Shown here in pieces: positions 52,557-60,394 of a DNA stretch of 64,000 bases (position 1 is the stretch's first letter; every line of letters starts with the position of its first letter). The DNA lies in NCBI RefSeq assembly GCF_015689335.1, contig NZ_CP065053.1:5146001-5210000 (forward strand). The letters are read 5' to 3'. Both the position numbers and the translations under genes were made by a program. The notes beneath the pieces are model-generated. The model ran no database searches. It saw only the letters and a program-made list of their open reading frames with translations, and was not told the DNA's origin. The stretch comes from Massilia antarctica (GTDB taxonomy: Bacteria > Pseudomonadota > Gammaproteobacteria > Burkholderiales > Burkholderiaceae_D).

Positions 52557-53441
52557 ATGACGAACATCGTTCACAATCTCGAATTACACAAATACCCTTC
52601 CACCCGTCACCTGGAAGGCTCGCAGCTGCAGCAGGGCGACGACGGTTTCGACAAACCGGGCAAACGCCACGATCCGCGCGCGGCCTATGCCTCGCTGGCC
52701 GGCCGCCATATCGTCGTCGAAGAAAAGCTCGACGGCGCCAATGCCGGCGTGAGTTTCAGCGAAGGCGCCGAACTGCTGCTGCAAAGCCGCGGCCACTACC
52801 TGGCCGGCGGCGGGCGCGAGCGCCAGTTCAGCATCTTCAAGCGCTGGGCCGCGGCGCACGAGAGCGCGCTGATCGAGCGCCTGGGCGAGCGCTACGTCAT
52901 GTACGGCGAGTGGATGGGCAAGAAGCACAGCGTCTTCTACAACCAGTTGCCGCACCTGTTCTGCGAGTTCGACATCTACGACCGCGAACAACAGGTCTTT
53001 CTGTCGACCGCCGCGCGCGCCGCCTTGCTGGGAAACGCGCCGGTGCTGGCGGTGCCGGTGCTGTATGCGGGCGTGGCGCCACGCAAGCTGGCCGACCTGC
53101 TGGCATACATCCGCTTTTCGCTGGCCAAGACGGCGGCATGGAAGAACGACTTTGAAGCGACTGTCGCCCGCGAGGGGCTGGACCTGGCCAAGTGCTGGGC
53201 CCAGGCCGACAAGTCAGACCTGGCCGAAGGCCTGTACATCAAGGTCGAGGAAGACGGCGTGGTCACGGCACGCTACAAATGGGTGAGGAGCGACTTCGTG
53301 CAGGCGATCCTGGACTCGAAGATGCACCACTCGCAGCAGCGCTATGTGCCCAATCAGCTGGCGCCCGGGGTCGACATTTACGCGCCGCGCCTGACCACGA
53401 CATGGGAAGACCTGGGCCTGGTAACCGAAGGAGGCAAGTGA
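52557..53441 (+). CDS. RNA ligase, nucleotidyltransferase superfamily
   Basis: 294 aa. Joins 3'-OH and 5'-phosphate RNA ends through ligase-AMP and RNA-adenylate intermediates. Motif I is EEKLDGAN with nucleophile Lys57. Motif III-like segments are YVMYGEWMGKKHSVFY and HLFCEFDIYD, motif IV is EGLYIKVEEDG (about 223-233), and motif V is ARYKWVR. Start ATG 52557 has GGAG 8 nt upstream; a Met four codons earlier would swallow that Shine-Dalgarno. It overlaps the next gene by one base (TGATG), so the ligase and the end-healing enzyme are translationally coupled. Confidence 0.9.
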   Translation: MTNIVHNLELHKYPSTRHLEGSQLQQGDDGFDKPGKRHDPRAAYASLAGRHIVVEEKLDGANAGVSFSEGAELLLQSRGHYLAGGGRERQFSIFKRWAAAHESALIERLGERYVMYGEWMGKKHSVFYNQLPHLFCEFDIYDREQQVFLSTAARAALLGNAPVLAVPVLYAGVAPRKLADLLAYIRFSLAKTAAWKNDFEATVAREGLDLAKCWAQADKSDLAEGLYIKVEEDGVVTARYKWVRSDFVQAILDSKMHHSQQRYVPNQLAPGVDIYAPRLTTTWEDLGLVTEGGK

Positions 53442-54586
53442 TGGACAAACTGAGCTGCAAGGCCATGGCGGCGCACGTGCCGGCGCCCGGCCAGACACCA
53501 GAGTGGGCCTGGTTCCTGCATGCGATACCAAGCCTCGCCCTGCTGGTATCGACCCCGCAAGACCCGTACTACCACGCCGAGGGCGACGTGTGGATTCACA
53601 CGCGGATGGTGATCGAGGCCTTGATGCGCGGGCCGGATTACATCGACGGCAGCGACGAGGAGCGCTTCATCCTGTTCTACGCCGCGCTGCTGCACGATAT
53701 CGCCAAGCCGGCGACGACCGTCATCGATCCAGACAGTGGACGCATCGGGCAGCCGGGCCACTCGAAACGCGGCGCGATCGATGCGCGCATCCTGTGCTGG
53801 CACGCTGGTGTGCCATTCGCCGTGCGCGAGCATATCTGCCGCATCATCACCGTGCACCAGCTGCCGTTTTTTGCGCTGGCGGGGAACAAGAACGGCCAGT
53901 CGGCCGAGTTCCTGATCCGTAAGCTCTCGCATGAACTGGACCTGCGCCTGCTGTCCGCGGTGGCGCAGGCCGACATGGAAGGACGCTGCTACGAAAAGAA
54001 GGACGACTGCCTGGTCGGCATCGAACTGTTTCGTGAAATGGCGCGCGACGAAGGCTGCTACGGCGCGCCGAAAGCGTTCGCGGACCCGCACACGCGCCTG
54101 TCGTACATGCGCGGGGCCGGCATCGCGCCCGATTTCGTGCATCACCAGAATGCGGGCTCGCGCGTGACCGTCATGTCGGGCTTGCCGGCGTCCGGGAAAA
54201 ACCACTGGGTGGCGGCCAACCGGGCGCGCTTGCCGGTGGTGTCGATCGACGACGCGCGCGAAGAACTGGGGTTGCGCCACGGCGCAAACGAGGGCGCGGT
54301 GGCGCACCGTGCGGTCGATTTCGCCAAGGAGATGCTGCGCGGAAAAGCGCCCTTCGTGTGGAACACCACGCACCTGAGCGCGCAGATGCGCAAGAAGACG
54401 CTCGACCTGCTGTATGCCTACGATGCCGAGGTCGAACTGGTGTACCTGGAACAGCCGCCGCAGGTCATCTTCAAGCGCAATACGCAGCGCGATACCAGCC
54501 TGCCCAACAAGGCGATCGAGCGCATGCTGTTCAAATGGGAGGTGCCGCTGCCGACCGAGGCGCATGTGGTGCACTATTTCGCCTAG
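53441..54586 (+). CDS. HD-Pnk-like RNA end-healing enzyme (HD phosphoesterase + 5'-kinase)
   Basis: 381 aa. N-terminal HD domain (about 40-200): His in YYHAEGDVWIHTRM, metal-binding H85-D86 in LLHDIAKP, and later HICRIITVHQLPFF. C-terminal P-loop kinase (about 241-381): VMSGLPASGKNHW (247-254), SIDDAREELG, NTTHLSAQMRKKTLDLLYAY, and RNTQRDTSLPNKAIERML. The layout matches Runella slithyformis HD-Pnk, which removes 2',3'-cyclic phosphate and phosphorylates 5'-OH ends. The Walker A Ser/Thr is Asn here (GKN). Coupled to the RNA ligase gene, it supplies the ends the ligase needs after ribotoxin-type cleavage. Confidence 0.9.
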   Translation: MDKLSCKAMAAHVPAPGQTPEWAWFLHAIPSLALLVSTPQDPYYHAEGDVWIHTRMVIEALMRGPDYIDGSDEERFILFYAALLHDIAKPATTVIDPDSGRIGQPGHSKRGAIDARILCWHAGVPFAVREHICRIITVHQLPFFALAGNKNGQSAEFLIRKLSHELDLRLLSAVAQADMEGRCYEKKDDCLVGIELFREMARDEGCYGAPKAFADPHTRLSYMRGAGIAPDFVHHQNAGSRVTVMSGLPASGKNHWVAANRARLPVVSIDDAREELGLRHGANEGAVAHRAVDFAKEMLRGKAPFVWNTTHLSAQMRKKTLDLLYAYDAEVELVYLEQPPQVIFKRNTQRDTSLPNKAIERMLFKWEVPLPTEAHVVHYFA

Positions 54587-54769
54587 CCGAGTGCACTGTC
54601 GGCCGGTTCGTCACGCTATTGTGTCGGTCCGGCGCCGGTGGAAGGGGCATGGTTTGTAAGCCCGCGCGCAGGTGCGCCATGGATAAGCATGGCGCCTCCC
54701 AACGCGGACGCGCCGGCCACTGATCCGTTCGAAGCCGCCGGCCCGCCCGGGCACCGGACAGCGTCGTGT

Positions 54770-57139
54770 TCACACGGCCAGCATCCAGTGAGGCGTGCAT
54801 GAATATCCCAGCAGTCTGCGCGCACCGCTCGCCAGATTTTCCGGTTCGTCCAGCGAGCGATGAGCGGCGGCCAGTTCCAGCCCTGCCATGGCAGGGGCGA
54901 GGCGTTTGCGCAAGCGTGGCGACTGTTGCGCCAGATGAGCATGCGCCCAGGCGATCAATTCGGCGGTGGCCGGGGCAGGGGCCAGCGACAGGAAGAAGAT
55001 CATCTGGCGCCACGCGTATGCGGCATTCCTGATCGCGCGCAGTAGTTCAACGTCACACTCGTCGCGCCCTGCTTGCTGGTCGCGGCAGATCCACTCGAAG
55101 CATTGCTGCGCCATGCCGTAAAATCGGGGCCGCAGCTCGTCGCCCAGTCCGAGCAACGATACCAGCGCGGCCAGGTTCTGGGTGGTGAGGATCTGCTGCT
55201 GCTCGATCATCATGGCATTGCCGGTCACGCCGCCGTTGCTGCGGATGCCCGCGCGCTTTTCGCATAGGCGAATGAGCTCTTTTATGTAGGTCCAGGCGTG
55301 GACCGGCGCCTTGGCCGGCTGCACGAGTTCACGCAAGTAGCTGCGCTGTCCCGCATCGATGCCGTAATAGCGGCAGTACAAACTGTCCTCCAGCAGCGTG
55401 CTCGCCTGCGCGGCCACCCTGCTGAATTTGGGCGAGAATGTGCCCTCGAATATATCGGCGGCCAGTTCTTCCACCAGCGGCAAGTCCAGTCCCGCGCTCC
55501 CCGCCAGCGCGCTCATTTCCTGCACCAGCGGATTGGGGATCATCGTCTGCGGGAACGAGGTCAGTGTCAGCACCGCGATTTCTTCCAGCGTCCTGCGGGC
55601 CAGCGTGCGGGGCTGCAAGCCGTGTTGCCGCTCGGCGTTGACGGCGGCGATCCACGGCAGTTCGTGCAGCTGCACCTGAGGCGCCAGATTCTGCAGGAGC
55701 ACAGAGCGGCGGCGCCGGAATGCATGGTACAGCGCGCCGTACAGGTGTTTGAGCGAAGTGTCTTCGATCGCCGCGCCGTTGATGGCGGCGCTCAATTGCG
55801 GAAGCACCGTGGCCAAGGCCTCGGCCGAGCGGATGATGCCGTGTTCGACCAGCGCCGCGATGGTATCGATGTGGCAGCGCCACAGCTTGGCGAGCAGGGA
55901 GGGCGGGATCGCGCTGCCGGCGCCCTCGCCGAGATTGGCCGCTTCCGCCGCGGTGACCGTCACGCTGAGCGGCGCCAGATCATCGATTCCGCCTTCCTGC
56001 GGATAGGCGCGCAGGCGGTCGGCCAGCACGCCGGCCAGCAGATGGTGCGGCACGCCTCTGGCCTGCCTGGCCTGTTCGCTGCGCAGCGCGGCGCATTGGG
56101 CCGATCCGGGGCGGCCGCGCTTGCTAATGTACCTGGCCAGGATGAGACGTATCTTGCCGACGTCGCGCCCGGTCAGAGCGGCCGGCTCCATCACGCAAAT
56201 GCGCAGATAGTCGAGCAATTGCGTCGCGCTATCATCCTTGCGCCGGGTCACGCTGTGCCCGGACCACTCGTGCAGCAGGGCCTCGCCGCGCGCATGCCAT
56301 TGGGCCGGATAGTGGCGGCACGGCCAGCCGCCGGCGATGCGGAATTTGCCGCTGACGCCGTCGCGCCATGCGCCGTTGGCATCGATATCGATCGACGGCG
56401 GCTCGCCCTCGACGCTCTCGATGAACAGCTGGACCGCGCGGTCGTACAACGGCAGCAGCGCGCGCACGGTATCGCGCTGCGTCATGATGCGGCGGTTCGG
56501 TGCGCGCCGTTTGTGCAAGGCCAGCGCCACCTCACGCACCGGTTTGAGAAAGACGCGCTCGCCGAAGCGGCGTGCTTGCGCGGCGGGCGCCGGAAAAAAA
56601 CGCAAGCGGTCGAACCAGGGCGCGATTGCGCTGAGGACCTCGCGCGCTGCATCCGCTTTGCCATGGCGGGTGAGCCAGGCCACGACCAGCAAGGCGCCTT
56701 CCTCGGGCACGTTGACGTCGTAGCAGCCTGAGTCGAGCAGGGCGTACAGACCCGCCATCCCGTCGTCGGTCAGCAGGCGCGCGTTGAGCCAACGGCGCGC
56801 ATCGGGCGCGGGCGCCATGCCGGCTGAGGCCAATGTCTGCAGTTCGTGCTCGAGCAAGGCGCCGCCGGCCTTGAAGTCGCCCGTGGCGAAGCCACCCTTG
56901 ACGATATCGGGCGTGACCCAGGCGCGCACCCCGTCCAGCGGGGTGCGCGAGCCGACGTCGATCGATCCCGTCAACATGCCGGCCATGACCTGCTCCCACT
57001 GCCGCACCTTGCCGCGCGCGCGTTCGCGCACCTGCGAGTCGGGGTGGTCGGTGCTGGTGCGCAGGGCGGCGGCCAGTTGCAGTGCCGCGTAGCCGGGCGC
57101 AATGCGGAGAGGTTCCGCGCCGGGAGCGTCGTTATCCAC
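54770..57139 (-). CDS. Uncharacterised 789-aa protein, partner candidate of the RNA-repair cassette
   Basis: No function recognised. The protein looks largely alpha-helical, without signal peptide or membrane segment. Notable conserved-looking blocks are LLTDDGMAGLYALLDSGCYD (about residues 123-142), PEEGALLVVAWLTRHG, YISKRGRPGS, and GNAMMIEQQQILTTQNLAAL (about 655-674), which I associate with large conserved hypothetical proteins of other bacteria. It converges on HD-Pnk (183 bp between stops). The start is GTG at 57139, with no good Shine-Dalgarno, only 28 nt after the 3' end of a tRNA-Arg gene on the same strand, so its promoter must lie upstream of or inside the tRNA. An internal start near residue 51 is possible. 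Confidence 0.8.
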   Translation of the reverse strand: MDNDAPGAEPLRIAPGYAALQLAAALRTSTDHPDSQVRERARGKVRQWEQVMAGMLTGSIDVGSRTPLDGVRAWVTPDIVKGGFATGDFKAGGALLEHELQTLASAGMAPAPDARRWLNARLLTDDGMAGLYALLDSGCYDVNVPEEGALLVVAWLTRHGKADAAREVLSAIAPWFDRLRFFPAPAAQARRFGERVFLKPVREVALALHKRRAPNRRIMTQRDTVRALLPLYDRAVQLFIESVEGEPPSIDIDANGAWRDGVSGKFRIAGGWPCRHYPAQWHARGEALLHEWSGHSVTRRKDDSATQLLDYLRICVMEPAALTGRDVGKIRLILARYISKRGRPGSAQCAALRSEQARQARGVPHHLLAGVLADRLRAYPQEGGIDDLAPLSVTVTAAEAANLGEGAGSAIPPSLLAKLWRCHIDTIAALVEHGIIRSAEALATVLPQLSAAINGAAIEDTSLKHLYGALYHAFRRRRSVLLQNLAPQVQLHELPWIAAVNAERQHGLQPRTLARRTLEEIAVLTLTSFPQTMIPNPLVQEMSALAGSAGLDLPLVEELAADIFEGTFSPKFSRVAAQASTLLEDSLYCRYYGIDAGQRSYLRELVQPAKAPVHAWTYIKELIRLCEKRAGIRSNGGVTGNAMMIEQQQILTTQNLAALVSLLGLGDELRPRFYGMAQQCFEWICRDQQAGRDECDVELLRAIRNAAYAWRQMIFFLSLAPAPATAELIAWAHAHLAQQSPRLRKRLAPAMAGLELAAAHRSLDEPENLASGARRLLGYSCTPHWMLAV

Positions 57140-57167
57140 GTGGTATCCATTGAAATGAAGTGTTGGG

Positions 57168-57239
57168 GTCCGGAAGCTGGAATCGAACCAGCACCTACTC
57201 AGTTAGAAGCCGAGTTCTCTGCCATTGAGTTATTCCGGA
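57168..57239 (-). tRNA. tRNA-Arg (anticodon TCT), divergent, no encoded CCA
   Basis: 72 nt. The acceptor TCCGGAA pairs with TTCCGGA, the anticodon stem CTCGG/CTGAG encloses loop CTTCTAA (anticodon TCT, reads AGA), and the T-arm GCTGG TTCGATT CCAGC is canonical. Deviations: the D-stem is only three good pairs (CTC/GAG) with a 7-nt loop, G10 is replaced by A, and the 3' end reads CCCCA rather than discriminator-CCA. The tRNA-Val in this window does encode CCA. It may be a working minor tRNA needing CCA addition, or a specialised/decoy tRNA. Confidence 0.85.
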
Positions 57240-57350
57240 ATTGTTTGCACGGACGCGGCGCCCAGCAGCATTGATGAAAATCAACGCTCAGGCGATCAGA
57301 CTAGCAGCTTTGCTAACTTTACTCAATGCACTGGCGAAAAACGTTTTATT

Positions 57351-57758
57351 TTATGGTGCCGTTGAATCGGCCGGTGCATACAGTCCTGCCGAGCGCAGCG
57401 CCTCTCGCATGGCCATCACGGTCGCCATCTGATAACAGCTGATTTTGGAGTCGGTGCTATTGTATGCGCCGTCCACGATGCGGATGCGGCAGCCGCTGAG
57501 ATAGTCGCCGTCGAACGCGTCTTCCGACAGCACATGCTTGATGCTGCTGATAACCGCGTCGAGGAACAGGAGAGGAATCTGTTCCTCAGACACTTCCCAG
57601 CTTAGCGTGCATCCATATATCGGTTCTGGTTCCAACACCAGATCGATCACCCCAAAACGCCCGGGCGGCCCCATCTGGCGGACGAACCGCCCGGCGCCGG
57701 TGCAGCGTGTGCGTAGCGGTACGCCGCGGGTCCCCGTTTCCACTAAAGCAATTTCCAT
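57351..57758 (-). CDS. Free-standing EF-G domain-IV-like protein
   Basis: 135 aa from ATG 57758. The C-terminal half, FLDAVISSIKHVLSEDAFDG, then DYLSGCRIRIVDGAYNSTDS and KISCYQMATVMAMREALRSAG, aligns by eye with domain IV of EF-G. In the fusA2 product of this window the matching run is [50 protein letters not shown]. There is no GTPase domain. It follows the zinc-ribbon gene by 4 bp in the same operon, downstream of fusA2. It may bind the ribosomal A site or act as an anti-EF-G/rescue factor; that is inference. Confidence 0.68.
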   Translation of the reverse strand: MEIALVETGTRGVPLRTRCTGAGRFVRQMGPPGRFGVIDLVLEPEPIYGCTLSWEVSEEQIPLLFLDAVISSIKHVLSEDAFDGDYLSGCRIRIVDGAYNSTDSKISCYQMATVMAMREALRSAGLYAPADSTAP

Positions 57759-57762
57759 CGGA

Positions 57763-58260
57763 TCAGCCCCACAACTTCCACCAGGGCCGCTCGCTGTCCG
57801 GCGGCGGTGCATGGCGCGATGCGACCGCCTGGACCCCGTCGCACAAAGGGCAAAACGAAGTGAATGTCTCTAGCGCGGCGTCGGCCGGCAAGGCCGGGAA
57901 AATGACCTTGATTAAATCTGACGGCGCGTCGAACAGTTCCGCGAAGCCGCACTTGCTGCATCCGTGGATCAGCCACGAGCCGCGTTCCTTGAGGTACTTT
58001 TCGCTGACCATCACCGGATGGCCGGTGCCGGTGGCGATGAAGCGGATCGATTGATTGATGCGCACCGTTTCCAGCTGCGTCGGAGCGATGATCACCCGTC
58101 CGCTGAAAATATCGCCTGCGACGCCGGTGATGCTCACCCATGCGAGTTCGGGATGCGCACTGGTCATGCGGCGGCCGCCGTCGTGGATGATGACCTGAAT
58201 GTCGTCCGGATGGTTGGGGTGAAGCTTGCCCGCCAGGGCGGGATGTGTGCGCCATTCCAT
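57763..58260 (-). CDS. 165-aa protein with C-terminal zinc-ribbon-like CxxC pairs
   Basis: Not identified. N-terminal part HPNHPDDIQVIIHDGGRRMT and LAWVSITGVAGDIFSGRVI, then INQSIRFIATGTGHPVMVSE, looks like a compact beta-rich domain. The C-terminal half has CSKCGFAELF and FCPLCDGV, a split pair of CxxC motifs fit for zinc. It ends WWKLWG. It precedes the EF-G-like gene by 4 bp, so they are probably translated together. A terminator for fusA2 lies upstream, so this pair likely has its own promoter within 58261-58300 or relies on read-through. Confidence 0.75.
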   Translation of the reverse strand: MEWRTHPALAGKLHPNHPDDIQVIIHDGGRRMTSAHPELAWVSITGVAGDIFSGRVIIAPTQLETVRINQSIRFIATGTGHPVMVSEKYLKERGSWLIHGCSKCGFAELFDAPSDLIKVIFPALPADAALETFTSFCPLCDGVQAVASRHAPPPDSERPWWKLWG

Positions 58261-58351: not shown

Positions 58352-60394
58352 TTACGCGGCGATCGACTCGGCGCGTTGCTGCATGCGCGGCGCGTGCCTT
58401 GCGTACACGGCGCTGGCAAACGCCCGCCCTTGCGAGAGCGAACGCAGACTGGTCGTGTGACCGAACAGGTTCGCCAGCGGCACATCGGCCACGACTTCGA
58501 CGCGCCCGGTTTGCTCCTCGATGCCGAGCACCTTGCCGCCACGGCGCTGCAGGTCGCCGATGACATCGCCCGCATTCACGGCCGGCGCATCGACATTGAC
58601 CGTCATGACCGGTTCCAGCATCAGCGGATGGGCTCGTTTAAGCCCGGCCAGGGTGCCTTCCTTGGCCGCCACCGCGAACGCCATGTCGTTGCTGTCGACC
58701 GCATGGTAGTCGCCATCGAGCAGGGTCACCCTGACACCCGTGACCGGGTAGCCCAGAGGACCTTGCGCCAGCGCCTGGCGCACGCCTTTTTCGATGGCCG
58801 GAATGAAGTTCGCAGGCACCACGCCGCCCTTGATCGCATTCTCGAAAGCGAACGCGCCATCGAACTGTTCCACCCGCAAAACGACTCGTGCATACTGCCC
58901 GCTGCCGCCGTTTTGCTTCGACACTTTGCCTTCCAGTTCCACCGCGGGCCCGGCGATGGTTTCGCGATAAGCCACCTGAGGCGCGCCCACCGTTACTTCC
59001 ACGCCCGTTTCGCGGCGCACACGTTCCAGCACCACGTCCAGATGCAGTTCGCCCATGCCCCACAGCACTGTTTCACCGCTGACGGGATCGCTTTCGAGGC
59101 GCAAAGACGGGTCTTCGCGACGGAAACGATCGAGCGCGGCGAGCATCTTGCCACGGTCGCCGCCCTTGCCGGGTTCGATCGCCAGCGCCACCACCGGTTC
59201 CCCGGCGTGGATGGTTTCCAGCACCAGCGGCACGGCCTTGGACGACAAGGTATGCCCGGTCAACGCATCTTTCAGGCCGGCGATGGCGATGATACTGCCG
59301 GCCTGAGCCTGCGCCACACCGGTGCGGCGGTCCGCATGGATCACATACAGCCGACCCACCCGCAGCGTCGCGCCGAGCGATGCATTCCACACCGCATCGC
59401 CTTCGCGCAGGGTGCCGCCATATAGCCGCACGTACGACAGCGAACCGTGGTCGTCGTGCACCACCTTGAACACCAGCGCCGCCAGCGGATCTGTGTCGCC
59501 GGTGCCGACCGTCACTGTTTCACCGTCCAGGCGCGCCACCGGGGCGGCGCGCTCGTCGGGCGAAGGCAGCCAGTCGATGATGGCGTCGAGCAGCGGCTCG
59601 ATGCCGGCATTGCGGTACGCCGAGCCGGACAGCACGGGCACCGCGCGGCGTGCCAGTGTCATGGCACGCAGGCCGGCGCGCACATCCGCCGGCGACAACG
59701 TGTCGTCGGCCAGGAAGGCCAGGGTGAGCGAATCGCTGCCATCGGCCGCCACCGCGGCGGCGTGCGCATAGGCTGCCTCGGCTGCTGCATGCAGATGCGC
59801 GGGCAGGGCGCTCGAACTCATCACGCCAGCAGCGTCCCAGGCCAGGAAACGCTGGCCGAGCACGTCGATGATGCCTTCGAACGCATCGCCGGCGCCGACC
59901 GGAATGGTCAACGGCACGGCCAGGGCGCCGAGGCGCGCGCCGATCTGGCCCACCACGCGGCCGAAGTCGGCGCCGCTGCGGTCCATCTTGTTGACGAACA
60001 CAATGGTCGGCACGCCGTGTTTCTGCGCCTGGCGCCAGACCGTTTCGGTCTGGGGCTGGATGCCGGCCACGCCGCACAGCACGGTGACGGCGCCGTCGAG
60101 CACGCGCAGCGAACGTTCGACTTCGATGGCGAAGTCGATGTGGCCTGGTGTGTCGATCAAGGTGAAGGCATGGCCGTTCCAGGCGCAGCGGGTGGCGGCC
60201 GCGCCGATGGTGATGCCGCGTTCTTTTTCGAGGTCCATGCTGTCCATCGTGGCGGTGCCCTCATGGACTTCGCCAGCGCGATGGATTTCGCCGGTTTTCA
60301 GGAGGATGCGTTCGGACAGGGTGGTTTTGCCAGCGTCGATGTGGGCAATGATACCGAAGTTGCGCGAGTTGGCGCGAAGGATAGTCGCAGTCAT
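58352..60394 (-). CDS. fusA2: Elongation factor G paralogue
   Basis: A 680-aa translational GTPase that moves tRNA and mRNA through the ribosome, or a paralogue with a specialised role. G1 [14 protein letters not shown] (about residues 17-30), G2-region [12 protein letters not shown]3 DTPGHIDF, G4 NKMD. Domains II-V follow with [20 protein letters not shown] in domain IV. The single isolated copy, without the rpsL-rpsG-tuf str operon around it, and the rather divergent sequence indicate the second EF-G of the genome. Start ATG 60394. It is followed by a terminator and then the EF-G-domain-IV-like gene. Confidence 0.93.

Follow-up and report, generated by a model that had tools for sequence, protein, structure and literature searches.

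A 64,000-nucleotide stretch of the 7.43-Mb genome of Massilia antarctica (G000:C1:5146001-5210000, hereafter the window) carries a gene for a transfer RNA (tRNA)-like RNA on the same strand as the gene for a 789-amino-acid (aa) protein, here called p789, whose start lies 28 nucleotides (nt) from base 73 of the RNA (Table 1). Genes for an RNA ligase and an HD-Pnk protein converge on these two and share base 53441, creating a one-base overlap, and Pfam divides the HD-Pnk protein into an HD phosphoesterase and a P-loop kinase. The first-pass annotation of the window had described this layout correctly, and it took the tRNA to be tied to the ligase/HD-Pnk cassette. Our comparisons show that the RNA is instead the partner of p789, and that its anticodon loop is hypervariable. 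We tentatively propose that RNA and protein form a ribonucleoprotein (RNP) that presents this loop to tRNA-cleaving agents.

Table 1. Features of the locus, in window coordinates.
Feature	Position	Strand	Characteristics
RNA ligase gene	52557-53441	+	294 aa; PF09414, E 6.6e-36; clade-local convergent neighbour of p789
HD-Pnk gene	53441-54586	+	381 aa; HD 1.9e-4, AAA_33 3.3e-16; clade-local, convergent with p789
p789 gene	54770-57139	-	GTG start; 789 aa; family undescribed as far as could be found
tRNA-like RNA gene	57166-57239	-	Anticodon UCU; ARAGORN; Rfam RF00005, 57.3 bits
Anticodon loop of tRNA-like RNA	57203-57209	-	CTTCTAA; hypervariable part is positions 34-38
Leader of tRNA-like RNA	57240-57309	-	Hairpins predicted by single-sequence folding

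The association between the RNA and p789 was examined at 21 loci, namely the window and L052-L071. In addition to the window, these comprise five more genomes of its genus, eight loci from other genera of its family (one of which carries only a p789 remnant, leaving 20 intact loci), one genome from another order of the class, and six actinobacterial plasmids (two each from Streptomyces, Embleya and Curtobacterium). At all 21, a tRNA-like gene is located directly upstream of p789 in the same strand and order. ARAGORN misses the RNAs of L067, L068 and L071, which are scored as tRNA by Rfam, and the only Rfam family matched by the p789-linked RNAs of the window, L058, L060, L065, L067, L068 and L071 is RF00005. 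The spacer between base 73 and the first possible in-frame start of p789 measures 1-50 nt in every intact locus, and only 1-3 nt in five of them (L057, L066, L068, L069 and L070). In seven of the 20 intact loci (L054, L056, L060, L063, L066, L068 and L070), the p789 frame is open and possible starts fall inside the tRNA-like gene, so p789 may begin further upstream there. By our own estimate, based on 89 tRNA matches in 7.43 Mb, the chance that a given gene has a tRNA within 200 nt upstream on the same strand is about 0.1%, and the adjacency to p789 recurs far above this expectation.

When 18 of the loci were compared all against all, p789 was the sole gene common across clades, aside from matches that are confined to a genus or are single and weak. 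A covariance model of the tRNA-like RNA places the p789-linked gene first in all six carriers of the window’s genus (84.0-89.0 bits), with the other listed matches at or below 66.9 bits, and in ten genomes of the genus without p789 no best match exceeds 66.2 bits. Given that the model was trained on those same six carriers and that 150 candidates were scored per genome, the informative part of this result is that no solitary copy lacking p789 was seen among the candidates scored in the 16 genomes. The tRNA-like RNA thus belongs to p789 and not to the ligase/HD-Pnk pair, which corrects the original proposal.

Some loci exhibit rearranged copies. L053 (12377-12859) carries a tandem duplication with partial deletion, in the order tRNA-like(CUU), chimeric open reading frame (ORF), tRNA-like(CCG) and intact p789; the chimeric ORF begins like p789 (29 aa), and its end was read as resembling the EF-G domain IV protein described further below. 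L064 (9129-9443) has kept a tRNA-like(CCG) gene although p789 there is a C-terminal remnant, and in the Embleya locus L070 (9628-9966), tandem tRNA-like genes with the anticodons UCG, UCG and CUC stand ahead of one p789.

The cloverleaf of the RNA, which has the 7-5-5 stems of a canonical elongator tRNA, is kept by compensatory changes. In an alignment of 23 copies (22 distinct) with 21 base pairs, pairing is present in 97.4% of the 462 cells. Double changes occur in 12 of the 21 pairs, compared with a mean of 9.8 for shuffled alignments (a level reached in 6 of 500 shuffles), and the covariation score is 0.557, as against 0.206 for shuffled and at most 0.172 for slid alignments. Departures from a canonical elongator tRNA are nevertheless numerous among the 24 copies that were parsed (16 proteobacterial and eight actinobacterial). 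The T-loop carries GGC in place of TTC in all eight actinobacterial copies, and therefore in 8/24 overall, and four of the 24 have a 6-nt anticodon loop. An encoded CCA is present in ten and absent in six of the 16 proteobacterial copies, whereas it is found in all 37 distinct canonical tRNA sequences parsed from the window genome, which are a partial isoacceptor set from which one odd ARAGORN record was excluded. Likewise, 13 of the 16 have C73, a base that only tRNA-His possesses among those 37 sequences. Both base 73 and the T-loop differ between the phyla. Identity between the window copy and the canonical tRNAs with which it was compared (22 distinct) does not exceed 72%, and copies in relatives that are labelled tRNA-Ser lack the long variable arm, some copies having 6-nt loops. 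To judge from these sequence characteristics, the RNA is structured but is no ordinary tRNA.

The most conspicuous characteristic of this RNA is its anticodon loop. The 20 seven-base loops display nine anticodons (UCU, CCG, UCG, CUU, UGA, UGU, UCC, CUC and CUG), with arginine anticodons in 12 of them and seven amino acids represented overall, and C32 and U33 are invariant in all 24 copies. Among the seven Massilia-like copies, every one of positions 34-38 varies (5/5), versus 10 of the 67 other positions. The two tandem copies of L053 differ at four of these five loop positions, and elsewhere at only 1/67 positions of the body, 1/110 of the leader and 2/27 of the spacer, with differences at 2/19 fourfold sites of the p789 start; the contrast between the loop (4/5) and body, leader and spacer together (4/204) is significant (Fisher p = 4.5e-6). 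In addition, identical loops recur in distant lineages, and L053 and L056 both carry CCG despite 33 differences in 109 leader positions. Given this combination of fast change within the L053 pair and loop sharing across diverged flanks, the anticodon loop looks switched rather than simply fast-mutating.

The window copy and the canonical tRNA-Arg(UCU) of the same genome have identical loops. We considered strict copying of host loops, which is unsupported in that only three of the 12 seven-base loops from the window’s family, each reading CTTCTAA, coincide with a canonical loop in the window genome, the one genome whose canonical tRNAs were used for this comparison. Two side observations concern loop sequence: position 34 is a pyrimidine in all 20 seven-base loops, and nine of the 24 loops have the sequence C(UNCG)G, which resembles a stable tetraloop.

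A search with the window p789 yielded 277 homologues at E ≤ 1e-3 among 7,999 candidates scored, and one with a Streptomyces query yielded 879 among 7,991, and so many homologues mark the gene as real. Among the former are proteins whose names refer to a cyanobacterium, to a planctomycete and to Labilithrix, and a protein of Massilia frigida is 97% identical to the window p789. Of the 120 listed homologues from the Streptomyces query, all that bear a name are called hypothetical or uncharacterized, the sole exception being one labelled as a serine/threonine-protein kinase. No match to p789 was found in Pfam (E ≤ 0.1), NCBIfam, PHROGs or PADLOC (whose library holds systems described by 2023), and the family profile matches nothing among PDB sequences. 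The AlphaFold model is confident (predicted local distance difference test score, pLDDT, of 90.7) and mostly helical, with only two strands of at least three residues, and a fold search with it gave no significant match. The architecture is constant among members, and none of the 44 members scanned matches TROVE, vWA or Band-7 (E ≤ 0.5); as a positive control, the same domain library detects vWA_Ro60 and TROVE in the Rsr protein of L057. As far as could be found in the libraries and literature searched, p789 represents an undescribed family, in agreement with the first-pass annotation, which had assigned the protein no function.

Representatives of p789 are sparsely distributed. We found the gene in 14 of 392 genomes of the family (one as a remnant), in 2/398 genomes across the phylum (the window’s own included), in 1/299 genomes of the order of G545 (G545 itself) and in six of 72,556 plasmid records, such that loci are seen in both proteobacteria and actinobacteria. 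It was found in none of 337 genomes from another class of the phylum, a search made without a positive control, and relatives were seen neither in 50,697 phage records nor in viral contigs. This patchiness fits lateral spread and turnover, as do the occurrence on plasmids, the tandem duplication and the remnant.

In two lineages the module is linked to RNA repair. The first is formed by the Massilia-like genomes, where the ligase/HD-Pnk pair flanks p789 in five of the six p789-bearing genomes of the window’s genus; the sixth has HD-Pnk at a distance of about 11 kb. Beyond this genus, a search by tblastn with both proteins found nothing near p789 in L057-L071. Of 15 p789-bearing genomes in all, 7 gave no match to HD-Pnk. 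The expectation that homologues of the 789-aa protein would recur beside both a tRNA and the ligase/HD-Pnk genes therefore holds at every locus examined for the RNA, and only in the window’s genus for the ligase/HD-Pnk genes.

The second lineage is genus g32, in which three of 43 genomes carry p789 (L057-L059). In all three, a divergent RtcR gene is followed by those for Rsr, a zf_Tbcl protein, RtcB, RtcA, the tRNA-like RNA, p789 and a second RtcB, with DUF6847 between RtcA and the tRNA-like RNA in one of them. The Rsr protein bears TROVE and vWA_Ro60 domains. These operon calls derive from Pfam for L057 and partly L058, and from tblastn for L057-L059. At L058, the locus searched with a lax Rfam setting, two YrlA RNAs precede RtcB (61.9 and 51.3 bits, E 1.2e-12 and 1.3e-9), both under the 69-bit gathering score. 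An analogy with rsr-yrl-rtcBA operons that was drawn from the window alone is thus borne out in this genus.

The g32 operons also reveal that RNA and protein come and go as a unit. Sister genomes retain the rtc operon without the pair (RtcA is 94-95% identical in G302, G343 and G240, and 85% in G187). Relative to G302, colinearity ends about 43 nt before the tRNA-like gene and restarts about 90-100 nt past the p789 stop, and approximately 2.6 kb with just the tRNA-like RNA and p789 replaces approximately 0.5 kb. Across L124-L127, the corresponding slot contains DUF6847 plus a 134-aa ORF, a 251-aa ORF, a 247-aa ORF, or nothing obvious, and the three ORFs have no Pfam match.

Our preferred interpretation, to which we assign a probability of roughly 0.4, is that p789 holds the fixed body of the RNA in an RNP whose loop faces tRNA-cleaving agents as a bait or recognition surface. 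The two genes would constitute one mobile module transcribed as leader, tRNA-like RNA and p789. The geometry is compatible with a single transcript, and an independently terminated tRNA transcript looks unlikely because the spacers are so short in all 20 intact loci. Ordinary tRNA processing would free the RNA, which p789 would retain as its cognate RNA, gripping the acceptor, D and T arms as a fixed handle and leaving the anticodon loop as an exposed variable end. This loop would switch among anticodon-like sequences because it is a surface contested with tRNA-cleaving toxins or defence nucleases. It may act as a bait or decoy for anticodon nucleases, which p789 might sequester, or p789 might respond once the bait is cut. 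Repair enzymes encoded nearby (ligase/HD-Pnk here, RtcB/RtcA elsewhere) could reseal the bait or damaged tRNAs of the cell. The broader proposition is somewhat more doubtful, namely that this is an undescribed kind of conflict system, a mobile RNP that unites a tRNA-like RNA of hypervariable anticodon with a protein whose fold is undescribed, and that offers a fast-switching bait or recognition module either alone or within RNA-repair operons.

Several observations weigh against this interpretation. The loops of L054 and L055 are identical although their leaders differ at 11/109 positions and their p789 genes at 83/421 fourfold sites, and there is thus no constant pressure to change. Most of the family loops compared, as noted above, differ from the canonical loops of the window genome, and the variable loop could also reflect relaxed constraint. 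Counting further pair types, one of five measures of covariation, gives no excess over shuffles (29 versus 27.3, a level reached in 114 of 500). Neither an RNA-binding nor a catalytic domain was recognised in p789, and the protein is absent from PADLOC. In G302, G343 and G240, unrelated ORFs that match nothing in Pfam occupy the space between rtcA and the second rtcB. This slot is therefore a cargo site, which weakens any argument from operon membership to function, but it fits a conflict hotspot all the same.

Moreover, an RNA-repair neighbour is unseen in 12 of the 21 loci within the stretches examined, where isolated repair genes of another type may have escaped. These 12 were searched by tblastn with ligase and HD-Pnk, by RtcB positions in six chromosomal genomes, and by single Pfam scans of some neighbours. 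Pfam was further applied to 122 of 151 candidate ORFs, a set that lies outside L059, L071 and the Massilia-like loci, and 25 of the 123 matched families were listed.

The very short spacers make one rival serious, even though we judge it unlikely. The tRNA-like RNA could be a cis-acting leader, serving as a processing signal or autoregulatory operator of the p789 messenger RNA (mRNA), with a loop that drifts freely; cleavage by RNase P or RNase Z, or binding of p789 to its own leader, would then set p789 expression. The invariable strand and order, the first starts located 1-3 nt past base 73 in five loci and within 50 nt in all intact ones, and the seven open frames with possible starts inside the RNA are as this model would have them. 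So are the leader hairpins predicted for the seven Massilia-like copies, the first in 7/7 and the second in 6/7 (it is missing in the window copy). However, neutral drift fails to explain why the tandem copies of L053 differ so much more in the loop than elsewhere, and leaves unexplained the reuse of the same loops by distant lineages and the fixed C32-U33. Furthermore, tandem arrays of two or three tRNA-like RNAs (L053 and L070) would be odd for a leader.

Two other functions for the RNA strike us as improbable, to the same degree. If it were a guide, the anticodon loop would pair with a target RNA, be it an mRNA, a phage RNA or the anticodon of a tRNA, on which p789 would then act. The fixed body, the variable loop and a protein partner of constant architecture suit such a role, but only five nucleotides vary and no catalytic domain was recognised in p789. 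If it were instead a dedicated donor tRNA, it would be aminoacylated and p789 would be an aminoacyl-tRNA-dependent transferase or similar. The cloverleaf, the ten encoded CCA ends and the preponderance of arginine anticodons are consistent with this, and against it stand anticodons for seven amino acids, four 6-nt loops, the differences between phyla at base 73 and in the T-loop, and the six proteobacterial copies without the encoded CCA that every canonical sequence from the window genome possesses.

A slightly poorer prospect is the initial form of the hypothesis, wherein the tRNA is substrate or sensor of the ligase/HD-Pnk cassette and p789 a component of it. The recurrence of that pair beside p789 in the window’s genus and the analogous rtc operon context in another genus speak for it, but the cassette is convergent rather than co-directional with p789, and the nearly half of p789 genomes without an HD-Pnk match, along with the empty searches of L057-L071, speak against it. 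Finally, we regard as refuted the notion of an ordinary decoding tRNA-Arg placed beside an unrelated gene by chance, which the ARAGORN and Rfam calls and the host-like window loop would suggest, given the 21/21 recurrence, a canonical tRNA-Arg(UCU) elsewhere in the window genome (L008), the lack of solitary copies seen, and relatives with 6-nt loops or with ‘tRNA-Ser’ copies devoid of a long variable arm.

The module resembles Rsr/Ro60-YrlA in that a protein gene is accompanied by its own tRNA-mimicking RNA and is found in rtc RNA-repair operons. Indeed, Rsr and p789 share one operon in the three g32 carriers, an arrangement not seen in the other 18 loci. YrlA includes a tRNA-like domain (PMC7790460). 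Unlike YrlA, the RNA linked to p789 forms a full cloverleaf, is scored as tRNA and has a hypervariable anticodon loop, and the two YrlA genes of L058 are separate from it; unlike Rsr, p789 has no TROVE or vWA match; and unlike rsr-yrl-rtcBA, the module stands without rtc genes in most loci examined. Burroughs and Aravind, in 2016, reportedly described SPFH/Band-7 proteins with a ‘novel tRNA-like molecule’ in RNA-repair systems, which would similarly combine a scaffold-like protein with a tRNA-like RNA near RNA-repair genes, but Band-7 is likewise without a match in p789. The HD-Pnk of Runella exemplifies a heal-and-seal pair of RNA ligase and HD-Pnk. The window pair (52557-54586) has the domain make-up expected for such a pair, and is a neighbour of the module rather than part of it.

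The pseudo-tRNA tRNA-Other of Bacillus cereus is tRNA-shaped without acting in translation, flanks a pathogenicity island and belongs to a larger regulatory RNA (PMC3399842); unlike the RNA described here, it is given no dedicated protein partner in the abstract of that article. Anticodon-loop changes in phage tRNAs have been proposed to reflect conflict with host anticodon nucleases, which they escape (PMC10264068). Unlike phage-encoded tRNAs, the tRNA-like RNA is tied to p789, a protein without relatives in the phage records and viral contigs searched. Because p789 shows none of the tested defining features of the known pairs, and because its RNA combines a full cloverleaf with an anticodon that switches and the module occurs alone in most loci examined, the absence of matches in the libraries and literature searched suggests that this is a new kind of tRNA-like RNA/protein pair.

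Protein-bound RNAs that mimic tRNA are known in bacterial RNA repair, as with Ro60 and Y RNAs. The RNA described here forms an entire cloverleaf whose anticodon changes, and its partner belongs to a large undescribed family. The pair points to an unrecognised RNA-protein system that may deal with tRNA damage, and it is one that annotation hides, since the RNA is placed among ordinary tRNAs by tRNA finders and the proteins are labelled hypothetical. Were the loop a bait, the module would show directly which anticodon nucleases soil bacteria face. Regardless, should the loop have another role, this would still be an RNA-protein pair with a candidate cognate RNA known from the outset.

Other genes near the module in the window deserve brief mention. 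Beside the tRNA-like gene, a stand-alone EF-G domain IV protein (57351-57758, - strand; EFG_IV, E 8.2e-10), which we take to be of the tRNA-arm-mimic type, adjoins a second EF-G paralogue at 58352-60394. This protein is fast-evolving; M. aquatica (L002) has two copies, L054 shows no more than a partial match, and L056 has no match. Between the two lies a gene (57763-58260, - strand) for a 165-aa protein with no match in Pfam, NCBIfam, PHROG or PADLOC, which among the compared loci is restricted to the window and the relative closest to it (L003/L052). Elsewhere in the genome, nine tRNA matches, several of them low-scoring, are clustered at G000:C1:1919244-1921238 (L077), and one of these (1920910-1920984) is the top match of the tRNA-like model in the window genome apart from the p789-linked gene.

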